DNA of 64,000 bases from Xenorhabdus poinarii G6. Lineage in GTDB: Bacteria; Pseudomonadota; Gammaproteobacteria; Enterobacterales; Enterobacteriaceae. The notes under the pieces were generated by a model, which searched no databases, was not told the origin of the DNA, and worked only from the letters and a program-made list of their open reading frames with translations. The stretch is from positions 62,001 to 126,000 of the forward strand of contig NZ_FO704551.1 in assembly GCF_000968175.1 (NCBI RefSeq), read 5' to 3'. A program made the translations under genes and the position numbers. Below, piece after piece: positions 8,220 to 35,596 of the stretch (position 1 is the first letter of the stretch; each line of letters begins with the position of its first letter).

Positions 8220-9128
8220 TTAATGAATCCGTAACTCTTTCTTTAGCAATGCTAATATGCTACTCACTTTAGGAAGCAATTGCTTGCCAATTGGCCATAC
8301 TAAATTCAGTGGTAGGCCATCTGTGGTCAGTTCAGGCAAAATGATCACTAAATCACCTCGTTTTATATCATCACAGACCAACCATGTTGCCAATTGTGCT
8401 ATGCCATATCCCGCTTTAACTGCACTCGCCTGCGCCTCGCCGCTACCAACGATAATACGTCCTTCCATTGTCTTACGTTCAACCAAACCCGTATTATTTG
8501 TGATCAACCAGGGACTCGTGCTTCCATCAGCCTTACCGTAGAGTACAGAATCATGAGATAGCAACTCGTTGACTGACGTCGGTGTACCATTTTTTGCTAA
8601 ATAGTCGGGTGAAGCACAAAAAATTAGACGCTCGCTACCAAGATAAGTGTGTCCCAAAGAAGCGGGCCAATGTTCCGCTCCCCCAATACGTACTGCTACA
8701 TCTATGCCCTCATTGAGCAGATCAACAAAGCGATCCGTGAGGGATACGTGAGGCAATAAATAAGGATGCTGTTCTGTAAGCTGTAAAATGAGTGGCATAA
8801 CATGTAAACGGCCAAACGCTTCTGGGGCATCTAAGCGCAATCGCCCTACCGGTTCTCTAAATTGGGTACTGAGAACAATTTCCGCTTCTTTTAAGTCAGC
8901 AAGAACACGTACACAAGTGCGGTAGAACGCACTGCCCGCGTCAGTCAGAGCCAATCGACGAGTTGTGCGTTCAAACAGGCGAGTACCTAGCCGATCTTCC
9001 AAACGTGCCACACTCTTGCTAATTGCAGAGTTGGTCAAATTCAACTGATGTCCAGCTGCAGTGAAACTCCCTAAATCAGCTGTGATTACGAAGGCTTCTA
9101 TACCTTTAAAACGTTCAAAAGGCGTCAT
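8220..9128 (-). CDS. LysR-family transcriptional regulator, divergent from an MFS exporter
   Basis: 302 residues. The N-terminal winged helix-turn-helix (about residues 5-65, FVITADLGSFTAAGHQLNLT...ISKSVARLEDRLGTRLFERTTRRLALT) is typical of the LysR CrgA/YhjC-like branch, followed by a periplasmic-binding-type effector domain. An AGGAGGG site precedes the ATG. It faces the MFS gene at 9246 across a 117-bp gap containing a palindrome, so it probably controls that exporter. The effector is unknown. Confidence 0.9.
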   Translation of the reverse strand: MTPFERFKGIEAFVITADLGSFTAAGHQLNLTNSAISKSVARLEDRLGTRLFERTTRRLALTDAGSAFYRTCVRVLADLKEAEIVLSTQFREPVGRLRLDAPEAFGRLHVMPLILQLTEQHPYLLPHVSLTDRFVDLLNEGIDVAVRIGGAEHWPASLGHTYLGSERLIFCASPDYLAKNGTPTSVNELLSHDSVLYGKADGSTSPWLITNNTGLVERKTMEGRIIVGSGEAQASAVKAGYGIAQLATWLVCDDIKRGDLVIILPELTTDGLPLNLVWPIGKQLLPKVSSILALLKKELRIH

Positions 9129-9142
9129 ATTACCCTCCTAAT

Positions 9143-9161
9143 TATGGATTTAAATTCCATA
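9143..9161. promoter_or_regulatory. Palindrome between LysR gene and MFS gene, candidate operator
   Basis: TATGGATTTAAATTCCATA is a near-perfect dyad just upstream of the LysR start. Its place in the divergent promoter region fits a LysR binding site. Confidence 0.5.
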
Positions 9162-9245
9162 GTAGTATGAAAAAAAAACAAATATAAGATTTATTTTTTT
9201 CAATAAACTAGCACAACAATTGATATTAAGCTGGAGTCTTTTTTA

Positions 9246-10424
9246 ATGTCTTCTTATTCCACATCGGTCGCAACAGAATCAGTTAGCCGTAATGGTCTTT
9301 CTATTGTTATCCTTGCCATCGCGGCTTTCGTTATTGTCACAACAGAATATCTCATCGTTGGGCTTCTTCCCTCATTGTCCCGTGACTTAAATGTTTCAAT
9401 TTCAGCAGCAGGGCAACTTGTGACATTATTTGCATTTACAGTTATGTTGTTCGGGCCAGTATTAACTGCATTATTATCTCACATCGAGCGTAAGCGCTTA
9501 TTTATCGTCATCTTGCTAATATTTGCGGTTTCTAATGCACTAGCCGCAGTTGCGCCAAATATTTGGGTACTTGCTATTGCGCGTTTTATTCCTGCTTTGA
9601 TGTTACCCGTATTTTGGGGAACAGCCAGTGAAACTGCCGGGCAAATTGTGGGGCCAAAACGTGCAGGACGAGCTGTTTCACAAGTTTACTTAGGTATTTC
9701 AGCAGCGTTACTGTTCGGTATTCCATTAGGAACGCTTGCGGCAGATTCCATTGGTTGGCGAAGCACGTTCTGGGGGTTAGCTGGCTTGTCTCTTTTGATG
9801 GCAATGCTTATCTTTATCTTCATGCCGACCGTTGCTCGACCAGAGAAGATAAAAATTAAGGAGCAAACTCGTATTCTAAAAGATCCTCGATTTGTCGCTA
9901 ACGTAGTGTTATCTGTTGTTATTTTTACTGCAATGTTCACCGCTTACACCTATTTAGCTGATACATTAGAACGCATTGTCGGGGTTCAACCGGCATATGT
10001 TGGATGGTGGTTAATGGGCTTTGGTGCTATCGGCTTGATTGGAAACTGGTTAGGTGGTCGCTATGTTGATCGTCATCCACTAAGCGTGACGGTGATATTC
10101 ACGCTATTGTTAGGTATAGGAATGGTCTTCACTGTACCACTGGCCAGCTCTTCGTTCCTGCTCGTCATGTCTTTAGCACTGTGGGGTATTGCTTATACTG
10201 CGTTATTTCCCATTTGTCAGGTACGCGTTATGAAATCAGCGTCACATGCTCAAGCTTTGGCAGGTACTTTGAATGTCTCTGCTGCTAACGCAGGAACAGG
10301 ATTAGGTGCAATCATGGGTGGGGTAGCCATCACACAATGGGGTCTGGGGAGTATTGGCTACGTGGCGAGCGGTATTGCTGTTATCGCTATCCTTATGGTG
10401 GCATGGATTGTGCGATTAAAGTAA
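9246..10424 (+). CDS. MFS (DHA1 family) efflux transporter
   Basis: 392 residues, about 12 hydrophobic segments. The first carries the DHA1 pattern TTEYLIVGLLPSLSRDLNVS, and loop 2-3 carries a basic motif (SHIERKRL). Such proteins export drugs, sugars or purine-like metabolites by proton antiport across the inner membrane; the substrate cannot be read from sequence. It is paired with the divergent LysR regulator. The gene ends before the ryhB locus, which is transcribed towards it. Confidence 0.88.
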   Translation: MSSYSTSVATESVSRNGLSIVILAIAAFVIVTTEYLIVGLLPSLSRDLNVSISAAGQLVTLFAFTVMLFGPVLTALLSHIERKRLFIVILLIFAVSNALAAVAPNIWVLAIARFIPALMLPVFWGTASETAGQIVGPKRAGRAVSQVYLGISAALLFGIPLGTLAADSIGWRSTFWGLAGLSLLMAMLIFIFMPTVARPEKIKIKEQTRILKDPRFVANVVLSVVIFTAMFTAYTYLADTLERIVGVQPAYVGWWLMGFGAIGLIGNWLGGRYVDRHPLSVTVIFTLLLGIGMVFTVPLASSSFLLVMSLALWGIAYTALFPICQVRVMKSASHAQALAGTLNVSAANAGTGLGAIMGGVAITQWGLGSIGYVASGIAVIAILMVAWIVRLK

Positions 10425-10505
10425 ATGGAGAGCTTAAAATAGAAAAGAGTAAAAGCTTCACCCTGGATTTTAAAATCGTTGAAAAAACGTGCGTCAATAT
10501 CAGGC

Positions 10506-10595
10506 AAAAAAAAGCCAACATAAAGTTGGCCTATAAAGTAAACACTGGAAGCAATGTGAGCAATGTCGTACTTTCACATGGACCCTGAAGGTGGT
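10506..10595 (-). ncRNA. ryhB: RyhB small regulatory RNA
   Basis: On the minus strand the region contains the RyhB core, including GCTCACATTGCTTCC within an unbroken 26-base match (10544-10569) to the conserved part of E. coli RyhB as I know it. It ends in a GCCAAC / GTTGGC hairpin (10514-10530) followed by eight T. The 5' end is set near 10595 from the promoter. RyhB is an Hfq-dependent RNA that represses mRNAs of iron-using proteins when iron is scarce. In E. coli it lies by the GNAT gene yhhY; here too a GNAT gene is next door. The 5' end is approximate. Confidence 0.9.
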
Positions 10596-10601
10596 GCACT
10601 G

Positions 10602-10630
10602 AAAGTATTAATAATGATAATCGTTCTCAA
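10602..10630 (-). promoter_or_regulatory. ryhB promoter with overlapping Fur box
   Basis: Minus-strand -35 TTGAGA and -10 TACTTT are 17 bp apart. The spacer and -35 contain AATAATGATAATCGTTCTC (10610-10628), which matches the 19-bp Fur consensus at 16 positions by my count. Fur with iron should block ryhB. Confidence 0.85.
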
Positions 10631-10713
10631 TATCATTTGTAAAGCGTTTTTTTAATCAAATTTGGGGGGCGTTTAAAAATGTGATTTAGCCAGGGTAGTC
10701 GTTATATTGTTGA

Positions 10714-11640
10714 TTATCCCCCCAGTTCCATTTGATAGAGATGTTGAGTCTCTGAGTCGTGAAATTGATAGGGTGTCAATTGATAACCTCGTAACCAGAG
10801 TAAAAACCAGCCATCATGTGTGTCTGGGCAAAGCCCAGCAAATCGAAAACCCCCTTTTTTGAGCAGTGAGTAGAACCCCAGCGTTTCTTCACAGGCCGGG
10901 AGTTTCAAATAAATTAGCTGACCGGTCGGAAAATCGATCACCTCCGATAAAAAGTCAGAATGAATCTCGTATAGCGTGATATCCAGACGACGACCGGATT
11001 TTTTAATCGTAAATGGTTCAGCGATCATTGAACGCTGATACACGGATGGGGTATATGGAGTTGATTCGCCGACATATTGGCCTATCAGGGAAACCCAGTT
11101 TTGCCAGGGCTGTGGCCAGTTGAGCTTAGGTAATGGCAATGATTTCAGCGGCAAAACCCCCTGAACGATACTTTCAGGTTCGGGTAAACCAAATGGCGAA
11201 TCGACATAATCCAGCATCAGCGCCGTAGAATGGAAACCTAAATTTCGGGCAATGTGCTGGCTTTTCGGATGTGAACATACCTGTTTTATCGTCAATAAGT
11301 TATAACCTTGCTCTTTCGCGTAATCGCATAAATAACTGCCCAGAGACTTCGCCACACCATAACCTTGAAAATCAGGATATACCGCAATCAGTGCTAACTC
11401 GGCCTGATTTGGCTGCATGGGATCTTTGACCAAAGAAGCATGACCGATAAGCCGCTCCTGATGGAATGCTAAGGCTGAGTGCCATTGCCCGGTGATTTGG
11501 TTATCATTGATCAGGCTTGGTAGATAAATGTCAGGATAAACATACGAATTGCCGTAAACTTCACGGAATAATTGGCTGATTTTTCTATCATCACCTGACT
11601 GATAGCGGCGGATCTGAATAGTGGGATGGAAGATAGTCAT
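10714..11640 (-). CDS. GNAT-family N-acetyltransferase, last gene of the LuxC/LuxE-like operon
   Basis: 308 residues. The N-terminal half (about 8-160) has the GNAT fold, with the acetyl-CoA loop near residue 95 (VYPDFQGYGVAKSLGSYL). The C-terminal half is unassigned and could be a second, degenerate domain. It starts 12 bases after the upstream PaaK-like gene with AAGG before the ATG, so it is almost certainly co-transcribed. In context it may acylate an amine or the product of the acyl reductase system; this is inference. Confidence 0.8.
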   Translation of the reverse strand: MTIFHPTIQIRRYQSGDDRKISQLFREVYGNSYVYPDIYLPSLINDNQITGQWHSALAFHQERLIGHASLVKDPMQPNQAELALIAVYPDFQGYGVAKSLGSYLCDYAKEQGYNLLTIKQVCSHPKSQHIARNLGFHSTALMLDYVDSPFGLPEPESIVQGVLPLKSLPLPKLNWPQPWQNWVSLIGQYVGESTPYTPSVYQRSMIAEPFTIKKSGRRLDITLYEIHSDFLSEVIDFPTGQLIYLKLPACEETLGFYSLLKKGGFRFAGLCPDTHDGWFLLWLRGYQLTPYQFHDSETQHLYQMELGG

Positions 11641-11652
11641 ATCGATTCAACC

Positions 11653-12897
11653 TTAATGATAATTACGCAGATCCACAACACGTTGCAATTTACCTGACCG
11701 TGGATGGGTATACATATCATCGATATTAGTTTGTACGATCTCCAACATATTTTTCTGAGTACAAAGTTTGTCCAAATGCGGAAAGGCAGTCATGACCCGG
11801 TGGCGTATTTTGTCAATGTCGACAGTCTGGAGGCTTGCAACCAATAAGCGGATTTGATCTTGCCCTTCTTTCTGGCTGAACTCCAATTGCCAGGCTAAAA
11901 GCTCGCGGTGTTGTGATAGCTGTGCTGCTAAATCGTCAGGGAATAAAGACAATGTGCCAAACCGGATACGGTAACCTTGATTCGCTCGTCCTTGTAAGGT
12001 GAACTTGCGCTCTGCCGGTTCTGAATCACACCAGCAAGCCATATCTCCGGTAGGATAACGGATGACGGGCATGAGCCGTCGTTGCAGATTAGTGACAACC
12101 AAGAGCCCACGTTTACCGGGTACAGTAATTGGCTGGTGGCTTATTTCATCGATGATCTCAACAATCGTATCGTTCTCAAATACCCGGTGTTCCCCTTTTT
12201 GACAGCCGGTATCCGCATAGCCGATTAAACCGGCATCGACACTGGCACACCCTATGGAGCCTAAACGAGCCTGAGGGAAAACATGTCGTATGATTGCAAT
12301 TTGTGCATCGAACATACTTTCTCCACCGTAAAGGATGGTTTCCACCCCTGGTAATGTTTGTCCTGTGTCTTTCAGATAGTGAGCCAGGCGGATTAACTGA
12401 ACCGGTACGCCTGCCAGCACATTGATATTATGAAGGCGGATATTGTTAACCAGCGATTCATCCTCGATCTTGCCAGCAAAAGGAAATTCCAATAGGGGCA
12501 GTGGTGCATTCGATAATGCACCGTGGATGAAAACAAAGCTGGTATAAAGATCGCCGGCAAAAAACAAATTGGCCACCCGATCCCCAGGATTTAATTGGCG
12601 GGCAATACCTTGGCCAAAGGAATGAATGAATGTTTTCCACTCTTGTTGACTGAAAACCGACAACCGTCCATCACTGGTTGAGCCGCCTGTTTTAAACACG
12701 TGACCGCCTTCCGGCGGCGCAGTCAGCACCGGCCATGTTGGCAAATTGTTTGAGTGTGCCCAATAATGACAGGGTTCCACGAGTGGCAAATCTTCTAAAG
12801 TCCAATGCTCTGGAATGGACTGATAGCATTCTCGGTAATAAGCAGAATGTTCGCGCACATAACGGATCAAATTAATCAAGGTTGTTCTGGTCATCAT
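11653..12897 (-). CDS. PaaK/CapK-like AMP-forming acyl ligase
   Basis: About 414 residues. The phosphate-binding loop FKTGGSTSDGRLS lies near residue 80. Later motifs are YGGES (about 205), GCASVDAGLIGY and the YPTGDM adenylation motif (about 295), followed by a small C-terminal domain. This is the phenylacetate-CoA ligase-like branch that adenylates carboxylic acids. An in-frame TTG at 12912 directly abuts the preceding stop; the ATG at 12897 is preferred, though its ribosome site is weak. Translational coupling with the fusion gene is likely. Its acid substrate is unknown. Confidence 0.8.
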   Translation of the reverse strand: MMTRTTLINLIRYVREHSAYYRECYQSIPEHWTLEDLPLVEPCHYWAHSNNLPTWPVLTAPPEGGHVFKTGGSTSDGRLSVFSQQEWKTFIHSFGQGIARQLNPGDRVANLFFAGDLYTSFVFIHGALSNAPLPLLEFPFAGKIEDESLVNNIRLHNINVLAGVPVQLIRLAHYLKDTGQTLPGVETILYGGESMFDAQIAIIRHVFPQARLGSIGCASVDAGLIGYADTGCQKGEHRVFENDTIVEIIDEISHQPITVPGKRGLLVVTNLQRRLMPVIRYPTGDMACWCDSEPAERKFTLQGRANQGYRIRFGTLSLFPDDLAAQLSQHRELLAWQLEFSQKEGQDQIRLLVASLQTVDIDKIRHRVMTAFPHLDKLCTQKNMLEIVQTNIDDMYTHPRSGKLQRVVDLRNYH

Positions 12898-12912
12898 GTT
12901 AATTTTACCCAA

Positions 12913-15348
12913 TTAATATTGACGCAAGTCGATGAACAATGGTGTTTTACCACTGTGTTCATTACGCTGAAAGTCAGCAGCAGAAGTGGAAATGATGTCT
13001 AAGATCAGGAGATTGCCTTCAACCACTTCCGTTATTTTGGGATTTTTCAATATATTCTGGCGTACTTTGGCTGGTTCGGCATGATCAACCAATAGCCGGA
13101 TAGTATCGATACCATCACGGTTATGATCGATTATCCATTGTACGGGTAACGCCAGTTGTTCCGACAAGTCAGCAAGATTAAAGAAAATACTGCCTATACG
13201 CAGTATGGTGCCATGACGCTCTTTAAGCCGGAAACGCGGTGAGGTAAGACCACAAGAGCAGGGTTGATTAACCCAACAACCAAGATCCCCTAAATCGTAG
13301 CGCTGGACACATTGTGCTTCACGATGGAGGGAGGTAAATACCAGACGCCCGGTTTCACCTTCTGCCACGGGTTGATCATGCTCGAGATTGAGAATTTCCA
13401 GCCATTGGGTATCCGCCATTAAATGGAAAACGCCATCCTCACTGGCTGCACAGGCATGACCCACCGGGCCGGCATCCACCGAACCGTAAATGGTTGAGCG
13501 GATCAGGGTAACGCCAAAACTGGACAGGAAGTTTCGCTGATGCATATTCAGATGTTCTCCCCCTAAGAAGAGCTTACGAATACCGCCATACTGACGTAAT
13601 TTGGTCGCTTCATTTAAAAATAACCGATGCAGTGTGCTTGGCATCCCCACCAGCGTATTAATGCGTTGGTTCACGATAAAATCTGCGATTTCCCTAAAGT
13701 CATTGTCAGCTGGGCCACCCATTGGATATTGCACCACACCCAATTTATCCAGAATGGTGAAGAAACTTATCATGCCGCCATACAATTTTCCGCCGTATAA
13801 CAGGTTCATGACCCGATCGGTGGCAGGCTCAAGCCCGGAAGCGAAAACACCATCGGCGGCTGCCCGCATTTGTCGGTGATAATCATCATAGCTGTAAGCC
13901 GCCAGTTTAGGCTTGCCACTGCTGCCACCACTGAGGAAAAACAGGCGAGCTTTATCATTAGGCACTTGTGCCTGAAAATCAGTCTTATTCATGAGCGGAA
14001 GATTTTCTAGTCCGCGTGGGCGAGATGGCGGCATATCAAGATGGGCACAACCCGCCATTAAATCAGGTGCAAGACTGACAGAAACTCGCTTGGTAAAACG
14101 TGACAGTGCATAGACACCATCGTGTGGCTCACCATGATAACCGTCGTGCATCTGACCTGCGGGCGTGATGCGATTAATGCCCGCGGCAAACAGAGTGTGG
14201 CTCATTTCGGTGATCTGCTCTTGGCGGGTTATCAACGCACAACTTTGCAGATAGTGGCGCCAGGGTAGCAAAATAGAGCACAAACGCTGACGCGGGGCAG
14301 GGCGTATCTGCAATGTACGGAATAGCGGAGAAGCGGCTAATTCCTCTTCATGACGCCATATGACCCGCCAGTCGTCAGTGCGCCAGATTTCTCCGCGAAC
14401 CTGCGTAAACGCGAAGTCGAGTTGTTGGAAAGCCGTTTGAGTCGTTATTTCCGCCGCTTCCTGAATATTCTTTTGCATGGTGGGATATTGCCCGGAACGG
14501 CGTTGCAGGGCGGCGGCCATGCGTTGTCCGATATGCTGTAAAACGTTAGGATCATCGCTATCGACCAGTAAACATTGTGGGCTAGAACAGGCTTGTTGAT
14601 CATAACGACAGATATCATCTGCCAAGGCATCCAGTTGCGTATCAGCAGTAGCTTCCGGGCTTAACCAGGCAATACTGATGCGGTGTCCCCAATCGATCCA
14701 GCGGCAACCCGTGGGCAGTTGAGAACGAATAGAGGCCAGAGATGAGTCGCTGCCCCAGGCAGAAACAGCATCGGCATGACTGAACAATTCTGCCAGTTCT
14801 GTCACGGGTAAAGGCAATACGGCGACTCGATCAGCTAAATCACCGGAAATATCATGGGCTAAAAATGCGGCCAGAAGTTGCGCACTAAACCCGTTATCGC
14901 TGCTGCTTGGACGTAACCAGTTAATATTACCTACCAGCAAACTCTCTATGACCGCCATAAAAGGCAGAAGTTCAGCATTGGACGGCGTAATATGGACAAC
15001 CAATCCTAACGGCTTCCATGACTCATATCGATTCTGGTTATAATCGAATCGGCGCAGTGAAAAAGCATTTTTGCCGAGTTCCCGTTCCAATTTGGTTTCC
15101 AGTGCTTCACGTTGGCAAAAAGCGATAAGCGCTTGCCGTGTCTGAGGGTCAAACAGGGGATGATCGTCCAGGTGGGAGAGATAATCGGCAAATTGTTGAG
15201 CGCAATCAAGTACCTGTTCAGCCGTATGGGGATGTGCCAGCAGCTCCGGTAAACGTTCACGCAATGTTGCAATGGTCTGTCCTGCCAACGGTTCAGTAGA
15301 AATCGGGGGAGTGATTGTTTTTATAGCAACGGTATTTACGGAAGACAT
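12913..15348 (-). CDS. LuxC-like acyl reductase fused to PaaK-like AMP-binding domain
   Basis: 811 residues in two parts. Residues ~25-400 match the LuxC acyl-CoA/acyl-protein reductase family (aldehyde dehydrogenase fold): GLVVHITPSNAELLP, GNINWLRPSSSD and the region YDQQACSSPQCL, whose Cys is the likely acyl-accepting nucleophile. Residues ~440-790 form an adenylate-forming ligase: FFLSGGSSGKPK phosphate loop, YGSVDAGPVGH and RYDLGDLG. Both motif sets look intact. It starts one base after the LuxE-like gene's stop. A reductase fused to its own ligase suggests channelling of an activated acid to an aldehyde. Confidence 0.82.
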   Translation of the reverse strand: MSSVNTVAIKTITPPISTEPLAGQTIATLRERLPELLAHPHTAEQVLDCAQQFADYLSHLDDHPLFDPQTRQALIAFCQREALETKLERELGKNAFSLRRFDYNQNRYESWKPLGLVVHITPSNAELLPFMAVIESLLVGNINWLRPSSSDNGFSAQLLAAFLAHDISGDLADRVAVLPLPVTELAELFSHADAVSAWGSDSSLASIRSQLPTGCRWIDWGHRISIAWLSPEATADTQLDALADDICRYDQQACSSPQCLLVDSDDPNVLQHIGQRMAAALQRRSGQYPTMQKNIQEAAEITTQTAFQQLDFAFTQVRGEIWRTDDWRVIWRHEEELAASPLFRTLQIRPAPRQRLCSILLPWRHYLQSCALITRQEQITEMSHTLFAAGINRITPAGQMHDGYHGEPHDGVYALSRFTKRVSVSLAPDLMAGCAHLDMPPSRPRGLENLPLMNKTDFQAQVPNDKARLFFLSGGSSGKPKLAAYSYDDYHRQMRAAADGVFASGLEPATDRVMNLLYGGKLYGGMISFFTILDKLGVVQYPMGGPADNDFREIADFIVNQRINTLVGMPSTLHRLFLNEATKLRQYGGIRKLFLGGEHLNMHQRNFLSSFGVTLIRSTIYGSVDAGPVGHACAASEDGVFHLMADTQWLEILNLEHDQPVAEGETGRLVFTSLHREAQCVQRYDLGDLGCWVNQPCSCGLTSPRFRLKERHGTILRIGSIFFNLADLSEQLALPVQWIIDHNRDGIDTIRLLVDHAEPAKVRQNILKNPKITEVVEGNLLILDIISTSAADFQRNEHSGKTPLFIDLRQY

Positions 15349-15349
15349 G

Positions 15350-16492
15350 TCAGGATCTCTTAATCAATTCTGAAGCGGCAATAGCACAACTCCGATTTTT
15401 GCTGGTACCCGCCCGGCCAAGTAGTTCGAACCAGTCAGTTTCAATCTCACAACCACAATGTTTACCCGGATGTAGTACGGCCAGATCACTGGTCACGATG
15501 CTATGGGCTGGGCAGGAAGTAATAAAAGGAGAAGTAAAATGCAGAAAACCCGGCTCCCCATAAGGTTGGCACTCCAAACTGGCGGTATGGCGTACATATG
15601 CGCGGGCATAGACCGGAACGTGAAAATGATGGTGAGAACATTCCACATAAGGTACGGGATGTTCAACGGAACCATAGCCATCACGACAGCGAATATCAGG
15701 GATACCGAGCTGTTCGGTCAACCGTTGATACAGTTCTTTTTTAGGAATGGATTTATCGGCATGTGTTTTCCAGCCTCCGCCAAGGAAAACCAGCGATTCA
15801 GGATGTAATGTCAGTGCAGGTAGTCCCATTTGCTGCATTCTTTGCAGGGTAAACCATAAAAAAGCCGGGAAACCGAAGATACGTACCGGTAACCCTTCCT
15901 GAGCAAATTGCTGGAGTGCGGTAATGGTACCGAAGGGGTCGAATTCATTCCCTTGCCCGTTATGGCGCAACGCATAGTAGGCTCGATTGACGGGGGCATA
16001 TTTGCACAAGAATTGATCGGTGTAAGCCGTGCCTAAAGTGATGGCACCAGCCGGTTCGTAGCTAAGCAGCAGATAGTTACAGGGCTGATCCGGGGTATTC
16101 CAGCCATAATAGTCAAAAATACAATCCACCATATGCTGGGCGGCCTTAATACTTGCAGCATCATAGCGCATACGGCTTTTTTGCCCGGTAGTGCCGGAAG
16201 AAGTCAGTTCCAGTGCGTCTCGAGCACTATCACTTAAGATCAGATTGCGTTTGAAATAATTGGCAAAGAGTAAAGGCAGGCTTGACCAATCCTCCAGCGT
16301 CATTAACGCCTGTTTATCCAGCCCATGATCCAACAGCCACTGTTCATAACCGGGGGTATGGTCACAGTGGTACTGCGTCAGTTCACGCATTGCGTGATTA
16401 AATAATTCATCATATTCGGTACAAGCACGGTAAGGATGTGTGATAGCACACAGTGCTTTGACGTGAGGTAAGTCTTGCATATCAGAACTCAT
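15350..16492 (-). CDS. LuxE-like acyl-protein synthetase, first gene of the operon
   Basis: 380 residues of the LuxE family. The adenylation loop LTSSGTTGQKSRM lies at about residues 95-107, and DGYGSVEHPVPYVEC near 265 corresponds to the conserved LuxE region. LuxE activates a fatty acid to acyl-AMP, holds it on a Cys and passes it to LuxC. It heads a four-gene cluster with 1-, 0- and 12-base gaps. No luxA, luxB or luxD lies nearby, so the product is probably not light. The start at 16492 lacks a strong ribosome site; ATG 16480 is an alternative. Confidence 0.82.
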   Translation of the reverse strand: MSSDMQDLPHVKALCAITHPYRACTEYDELFNHAMRELTQYHCDHTPGYEQWLLDHGLDKQALMTLEDWSSLPLLFANYFKRNLILSDSARDALELTSSGTTGQKSRMRYDAASIKAAQHMVDCIFDYYGWNTPDQPCNYLLLSYEPAGAITLGTAYTDQFLCKYAPVNRAYYALRHNGQGNEFDPFGTITALQQFAQEGLPVRIFGFPAFLWFTLQRMQQMGLPALTLHPESLVFLGGGWKTHADKSIPKKELYQRLTEQLGIPDIRCRDGYGSVEHPVPYVECSHHHFHVPVYARAYVRHTASLECQPYGEPGFLHFTSPFITSCPAHSIVTSDLAVLHPGKHCGCEIETDWFELLGRAGTSKNRSCAIAASELIKRS

Positions 16493-17151
16493 TTTTCAGT
16501 AACAACCACGTAGGGTGATTAATTTAAATAAATTTAATTAATTTATTTGTTTTTATATCGGATGTAATCGTTTTTGATAGATTTTATTTATTATATTATT
16601 TAATAAATAAAATCACCTCTCTTAGACTTAATTGTTGATCGTAGTTACAGTGTGATGTTTTTATTGGTGATAATGATTAAGGTTGTTATTTAATTTATTT
16701 GTCATATATCAATATTAAATACTGGTTTTTTCTATTTGTGTAGTCAATGTGGGTTATGTGCTTTCTGCGCGTATTATTCCAAACCACATGGGAACAATCA
16801 AATTGTTTTTCTAATGATTCGTTCTGTTGTGAGGTTTAAGATAATCATTATTTAATAGAACAATGACATTAATTATTATTATGTTGTTGTTAATTTCAGT
16901 GTGGTTTTCATGGTGAATGGCAGAAAAATTTTTTCTTTTTCTAAGAAAAGGGCAGGAATGGTGGCTCATCATTTCCAGGCCTTAAGTCTTGCCTCTGCAA
17001 GTTAATTGCGCCTGGCACGCTTCCATGAAAAGCGAATTTTTAGATTCTATTTCTTTCGTTTATTCTTGTGATGCTTGTTTAATATCATCGATATGATAAT
17101 TCAGATGTTTGCTAACTCGTGAAAGAATCAAAGTTCAACAAAGGAGTAATG
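16493..17151. other. AT-rich promoter gap between LuxE-like operon and aldo/keto reductase
   Basis: About 660 bases, strongly AT-rich, with no open frame of credible composition. It must contain the divergent promoters of the two flanking units. I see no clear palindromic operator or RNA gene. Confidence 0.6.
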
Positions 17152-35208: not shown

Positions 35209-35504
35209 TTCATCCTCCGGTTTTGATGAAGCCATCCTCCAGGGGGATTTCCGCTAGTAGCCTATCTGATACCCCTTAACCTTTCGCATAACAAAGATGC
35301 TGTTACAACATTTTGTTATATATAGCATTTCTACCATTATGGGGGTGTTGATGTTTTGAGGGGAAAATAGTACCCCATAATGCACCCCAAAAAATTGCTT
35401 GATGTCTGTTGAGGTAAGTTGACTACAGAAGAATAATTTTTTTATTTTATCTGTAGTTAATGGGATTTTGTTGACTTAGGGAGAGTTCAGAAGAGGTATA
35501 ATAG

Positions 35505-35596
35505 CGGAAGATCACAGGAGTTGAACCTGCCAAGGGCCGCTGGCGACCCCATCTGGATTTGAAGTCCAGCCGCCCCACCGGGGACGATGATCTTCC
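35505..35596 (-). tRNA. selC: tRNA-Sec (UCA anticodon)
   Basis: The minus strand reads GGAAGAT...ATCTTCCG with the long acceptor and extra arms of bacterial selenocysteine tRNA. The anticodon TCA is at 35560-35562 within GGACTTCAAATCC, and the T arm GGTTCAACTCC is near the 3' end. CCA is not encoded after the discriminator G. selC is a classical island integration site, and a broken integrase lies downstream. Confidence 0.95.

Follow-up and report, generated by a model that had tools for sequence, protein, structure and literature searches.

A RyhB small RNA locus of Xenorhabdus poinarii G6 and its conserved 5' hairpin

RyhB is a small RNA that bacteria make in iron shortage, and it decides which proteins a bacterium gives up at low iron. 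In E. coli the gene order is yhhY-ryhB-yhhX-yhhW, and the sequence at the ryhB locus runs TGGACA, 18 bases, TATTAT, then TGTCTC and GCGATC, the E. coli RNA presumably beginning with GCGAUC. A peptide, RyhP (MAHIASSIT), is reported from E. coli O157:H7 (PMC5331693). According to a 2014 review, Yersinia (RyhB1 and RyhB2) and Salmonella (RfrA and RfrB, or RyhB-1 and RyhB-2) carry sibling RNAs, one at the E. coli-type locus and the other at a different site, which have their core in common and have diverged at their 5' ends; the review leaves the role of the RyhB 5' end open for Salmonella and Yersinia (PMC4211561).

Literature matches listed for Xenorhabdus, Photorhabdus, Proteus mirabilis and Morganellaceae include no title or abstract start on their RyhB, and those listed for Xenorhabdus small RNAs and Hfq, or Fur and iron limitation, none on a RyhB of these genera; a mention in the full texts is possible in both cases. 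We analyzed the locus in a 64,000-nucleotide stretch of the X. poinarii G6 genome (the window; NZ_FO704551.1, positions 62,001 to 126,000) and compared it with loci from the genus and the wider family. It holds a known kind of small RNA, RyhB, with a lineage-specific 5' domain, and what merits an experiment is the conserved 5' hairpin of the Xenorhabdus lineage.

Identity and position of the locus

A cmscan search with all Rfam families matched RyhB (RF00057) at 10575-10506 on the minus strand, covering the model from end to end (1-67 of 67) at 68.6 bits and an E value of 1.1e-10, which excludes chance. The curated cut-off of the family is 55 bits. An earlier note, made from the letters alone, had placed a RyhB small RNA on this strand of a gene-free gap and offered a model match above cut-off as the test; the observation is confirmed, and the gap almost certainly holds a real RyhB copy, the ordinary chromosomal one. 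Besides RyhB, the window has just one Rfam match above cut-off, a selenocysteine tRNA gene (35504-35596, minus strand).

The 26-nt core that the note had singled out, ACGACATTGCTCACATTGCTTCCAGT, lies exactly where it had been read, occurs once in the window, and is letter-identical in the E. coli locus. Across 30 Xenorhabdus genomes its mean pairwise identity over 24 bases is 1.00 in both RyhB copies that these genomes carry. The terminator claimed for the gene has its counterpart in a terminator-like hairpin with a T run at 10532-10512 on the minus strand. The coordinates of the features are collected in Table 1.

Table 1. Features of the ryhB region, in window coordinates
Feature	Position	Strand	Basis
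RyhB core, target-pairing stretch	10544..10569	-	Rfam match, E. coli identity, sodB/sdhC start complementarity
Intrinsic terminator, hairpin and T run (Rho-independent, U tail as putative Hfq site)	10506..10532	-	Rfam match, terminator-like hairpin
ryhB (copy B), predicted transcript of about 100 nt ending in the T run	10506..10606	-	Rfam match, model R1, TATCAT distance, 5' hairpin; inferred
Predicted 5' hairpin, stem ACUUUCA/UGAAAGU, apical ACCUUCAG	10570..10606	-	genus-conserved sequence, folding
Predicted -10 hexamer TATCAT	10614..10619	-	30/30 orthologs
Predicted -35 hexamer TTTACA	10638..10643	-	30/30 orthologs
Fur-box-like region, overlapping 19-mers, spanning the -10 hexamer and some of the spacer	10610..10634		match to 19-base Fur consensus
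pckA, downstream side of ryhB, 3.4 kb off in this genome	5514..7142	+
GNAT acetyltransferase, upstream side of ryhB	10714..11640	-

Genes of this kind were said in the note to be missed by protein-only annotation, and in all five E. coli records listed, out of 5,367 with a RyhB match, there is indeed no annotated feature under the match. As the RyhB case shows, genes like this are lost when annotation centres on proteins.

Within about 2 kb on each side of the window-type copy, the GNAT gene is found in 28 of the 30 Xenorhabdus genomes and pckA in 21, with one or both present in every genome. The gene yhhW stands beside this copy in 18 genomes, in 16 of them with pckA in the same stretch; a tblastn search (1e-5) did not find it in the X. 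poinarii window, and none of the 30 Xenorhabdus stretches around ryhB showed yhhX or yhhY. Because yhhW follows ryhB in E. coli and lies beside it in 18 of the 30 Xenorhabdus genomes, the window copy is, as judged from gene order, the E. coli-type copy, a positional ortholog of the E. coli gene. The model R1, which matches the genome at C1:72507-72606 (window 10507-10606), has matches in 191 of 295 family genomes; the sequences viewed were those of 30 obtained as loci and of loci searched later. Among 26 R1 loci viewed outside Xenorhabdus, ten have ryhB together with yhhW and pckA (L125-L132, L136, and L138; five genera), eight have yhhX, yhhY, and/or yhhW without pckA, and eight have none of the neighbor genes queried.

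A LysR gene and an MFS transporter gene separate pckA from ryhB (window 8220-10424) in only one of the 30 stretches, that of X. poinarii G6 itself. Relatives of the MFS protein among the matches listed come from Ensifer, Pseudoxanthomonas, and other distant genera, with one from X. mauleonii; a search with its 936 bases gave near-complete matches in three of the 30 Xenorhabdus genomes and one of 119 bases in a fourth, and its best NCBIfam match, Cmx/CmrA, is far below cut-off. The plus-strand frame that the note had dismissed as spurious (10337-10588) exists, with a length of 83 amino acids, and gave no match in Pfam. Since it begins inside this MFS gene, which among the 30 genomes lies within 2 kb of ryhB in this one only, the frame is very probably spurious. 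On the other side of ryhB, a row of minus-strand genes (10714-16492) encodes the GNAT protein, a protein without a Pfam match, a LuxC and AMP-binding fusion, and a LuxE-family protein; relatives of the Pfam-less protein resemble part of the next protein (27-29% identity).

Promoter and predicted mode of action

The promoter proposed in the earlier note, TTGAGA-17-TACTTT, probably assigned the -10 and -35 elements wrongly. It is exact in only four of 30 orthologs (25 when the -10 element may vary at its first T), whereas all 30 window-type copies and 28 of the 30 sister copies in Xenorhabdus have TTTACA-18-TATCAT, on sequence grounds the more likely promoter. On this reading TACTTT would be the RNA start and one arm of the first stem, not a -10 box. 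A start placed at the E. coli-like distance falls on 10607, one base from the first base of the hairpin (10606). Transcription would thus begin near 10606, further upstream than in the earlier reading, and would give a predicted RNA of about 100 nt rather than the roughly 90 nt suggested before.

This putative sigma-70-type promoter is overlapped by a putative Fur box. Scored against a 19-base sequence that we take to be the Fur consensus, the site at 10610-10628 agrees at 16 of 19 positions in plus orientation and at 15 in minus orientation, so that the count of 16 given previously holds for the plus orientation and the coding strand reads 15. A second register at 10616-10634 scores 15 (minus) and 14 (plus). 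The 10610-10628 site is the best in the window and the only one to reach 16; five mononucleotide shuffles yielded no site of 16 and one of 15. Fur-like sites scoring 15 also occur at 16834-16852 and 9800-9818, which means that sites of this grade are not rare in the window. The LuxE-family frame starts at 16492, some 340 bases downstream of the first of these two.

The promoter geometry, the Fur-like site, the terminator, the occurrence in all 30 genomes, and the neighbor shared with E. coli ryhB agree and support, at the level of sequence, the RyhB interpretation. We consider it very probable that E. coli ryhB has its positional ortholog in this locus and that the locus encodes a Fur- and iron-controlled, Hfq-held small RNA that represses mRNAs of the sodB and sdhC type. 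Genes for both Hfq and Fur are present in the genome. By analogy with what is known of RyhB, from which we infer iron control, Hfq binding, the start site, and target repression, the locus would work as follows. With plentiful iron, Fur-Fe(II) would sit on the box overlapping the -10 region and block transcription. When iron falls, the RNA of about 100 nt would be transcribed from around 10606 as far as the terminator (10506) and be held by Hfq, and its core would pair with mRNAs for iron-using proteins, such as sodB and sdhC, at their start regions and stop their translation. Two such RNAs, identical in their core, are encoded in the genome.

Complementarity to these targets was examined across the genus. 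The sequence GCAAUGUC, the complement of GACAUUGC in the core, lies across the start of sodB in each of 17 distinct regions, which represent 25 of the 30 genomes; the site is 8 nt long, and the duplex energy is equaled by five of 28 control start regions and by 28 of 300 shuffled cores. The duplex of core and sdhC has a mean energy of -24.4 kcal/mol over 30 genomes, a strength matched by none of 28 control start regions and by ten of 300 shuffled cores. Pairing with sdhD gave no signal (seven of the 28 controls were as strong). The core target energies are thus only moderate.

The 5' hairpin

The note had remarked that the 5' part differs from that of E. coli RyhB, and we agree. Over the 38 bases before the core, mean pairwise identity in the 30 genomes is 0.96 for the window copy versus 0.60 for the sister copy. 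From 10606 the predicted fold is ACUUUCAGUG.ACC(ACCUUCAG)GGU.CAU.UGAAAGU. Its apical CCUUC is invariant, both in all 30 Xenorhabdus genomes and in 15 of 15 sequences spanning four genera. At the ryhB locus the CCUUC hairpin was found in every genome searched of the genera g106 (3/3), g117 (3/3), and g162 (2/2); it is absent from g152 (one genome) and g114 (three genomes) despite the same ryhB position, and the 5' parts of 16 other RyhB RNAs viewed are different.

Evidence for the predicted structure is modest. The outer stem forms in 15 of 15 hairpins from the four genera, each folded alone, and the hairpin by itself reaches -10.6 kcal/mol, equaled or bettered by 25 of 1,000 mononucleotide shuffles. 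For a 97-nt segment of the RNA, z = -1.74 (eight of 200 shuffles as good). When four orthologs were folded at full length, the hairpin formed in three; in the fourth, L065, the GAAAGU arm pairs elsewhere. A two-sided change was seen at one of 20 predicted pairs, in one of the 30 Xenorhabdus sequences, L040, where A-U is replaced by G-C in compensatory fashion. The second predicted helix involves the invariant core, and variation among these 30 sequences lends it no support. RNAalifold on the 15 hairpins of four genera gave four inner pairs with no two-sided change; in the automatic alignment of these hairpins (A2) the groups stand one base out of register.

The fixed CCUUC loop sits inside CACCACCUUCAG, which in our view resembles the anti-Shine-Dalgarno end of 16S rRNA. 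We suggest that the hairpin may be a second mRNA-pairing site. We put forward, as a tentative reading held at somewhat less than even confidence, that in Xenorhabdus and three related genera the 5' hairpin of the E. coli-type RyhB, with its CCUUC loop, serves as a second recognition site that pairs with purine-rich ribosome-binding sites. If so, iron starvation would control two sets of mRNAs through one RNA, with the sister copy between sapA and pspF serving the classical set.

The candidate targets were sought at start sites. Against the sdhC start the 5' part gives a mean of -21.2 kcal/mol, a strength reached by one of 28 control regions; for sdhD and sodB, six and 16 of 28 controls are as strong. 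In the X. poinarii genome, 68 start sites fit the loop-complementary pattern GRRGGTGGN{2,13}ATG, versus 35 for the reversed control pattern. Frames were checked at 67 of the 68, the site at 1539741 (read as inside sodB) being left out; 15 have at least 50 codons, and only potB exceeds 100 codons with a close in-frame stop upstream. As a conserved target potB was rejected: the 11-bp match is found in one of 30 genomes, the longest run in the other 29 is 6, and 36 of 300 shuffled loops pair equally well. Among the start sites scanned, of which potB was the one followed, no conserved target of the loop was found. Genus-wide, and by number of sequence hits, the pattern CTGAAGGTGN{2,12}ATG exceeds its reversed control in 30 of 30 genomes.

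The hairpin could instead have been kept as a stability element that protects the 5' end against RNases, a possibility that we regard as real if somewhat doubtful. It would fit the outer stem that forms in every single-sequence fold, the replacement of A-U by G-C in L040 and, when Xenorhabdus is compared with g162, at the first pair, and the lack of conservation of potB, the one start-site candidate examined for the loop; stability, however, needs no fixed loop, and CCUUC does not vary within the genus or across the four genera. That the conserved block is a signal in the DNA, such as a promoter-proximal element or regulator site, and not a feature of the RNA, seems to us improbable. The block adjoins the promoter, itself kept at 0.89 mean identity, and the hairpin is incomplete in one of the four full-length folds (L065), but the predicted start is upstream of the block, and the few changes seen in it preserve base pairing.

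It is most unlikely that a RyhP-like peptide encoded in the region explains the conservation. Its first seven codons are identical in the window copy, but the frame there runs without a stop to the terminator T run, so that an ATT-started nine-codon frame with a stop is not found in this copy; the frame is closed before the T run in only 20 of 98 distinct RyhB sequences (at exactly nine codons in four), and in four of 30 distinct window-type and three of 28 distinct sister-type Xenorhabdus sequences. Just as remote is the notion that the window locus is a decaying duplicate that owes its core to descent while the sapA-pspF copy does the work: it has the lower Rfam score (68.6 versus 82.7 bits), but its better-kept 5' part, its promoter hexamers (30 of 30 versus 28 of 30), and its perfectly kept core, as in the sister, are unlike a decaying gene. 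The sibling RNAs, with identical cores and opposite fates of their 5' ends, offer a clean natural test of the role of the RyhB 5' end.

The sister copy and comparison with known RyhB genes

The second RyhB of the X. poinarii genome lies between sapA and pspF at C1:1555665-1555731. Two copies above cut-off are present in all 30 Xenorhabdus genomes (this one and 29 others), and a third match of 27.9 bits, below cut-off, occurs in two. For these counts L032 was excluded as a duplicate of L001, both being records of the second X. poinarii copy, and copies with more than three core substitutions were left unclassed. The sister copy has the higher Rfam score and a 5' part that changes fast within the genus. 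Of the five genera in which ryhB was seen together with yhhW and pckA, four also have a RyhB between sapA and pspF: g162, g152, g106, and g114 (in g114 at 51.6 bits, below cut-off).

Several other RyhB arrangements were observed in the family. Genus g106 has four copies above cut-off in three of three genomes searched (L388-L390, L370-L372, L379-L381); on a single contig, two of the four are separated by 1 to 4 kb. A further class (L382-L390, L039), found in several genera, has TTGAGTA or CTGAGTA within a related 5' stretch, and none of pckA, sapA, pspF, yhhW, yhhX, and yhhY was found beside it. Locus L076 (genome G036) has tandem RyhB-like cores 366 bases apart, with an altered core end and scores below cut-off.

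With E. coli RyhB the window copy has in common the 26-nt core, the 18-base spacing of the hexamers, the Fur-like box over the promoter, the terminator, and, in 18 of 30 Xenorhabdus genomes, yhhW on the downstream side. It differs in the sequence of its 5' hairpin, in having pckA nearby instead of yhhX or gntR, in the absence of yhhW from its own window, in lacking a closed RyhP frame, and in the presence of a second genomic copy. Compared with the Yersinia and Salmonella pairs, the Xenorhabdus sister adjoins sapA (30 of 30 genomes) and pspF (28 of 30), and it is the E. coli-type copy that has the conserved 5' end, a comparison made here within Xenorhabdus. In its 5' part the window copy resembles the RyhB genes at yhhW-pckA in g106, g117, and g162, which share both position and CCUUC hairpin with the window copy; the first stem pair is A-U in Xenorhabdus, unlike the G-C of g162 and the unpaired A/A of g106 and g117.
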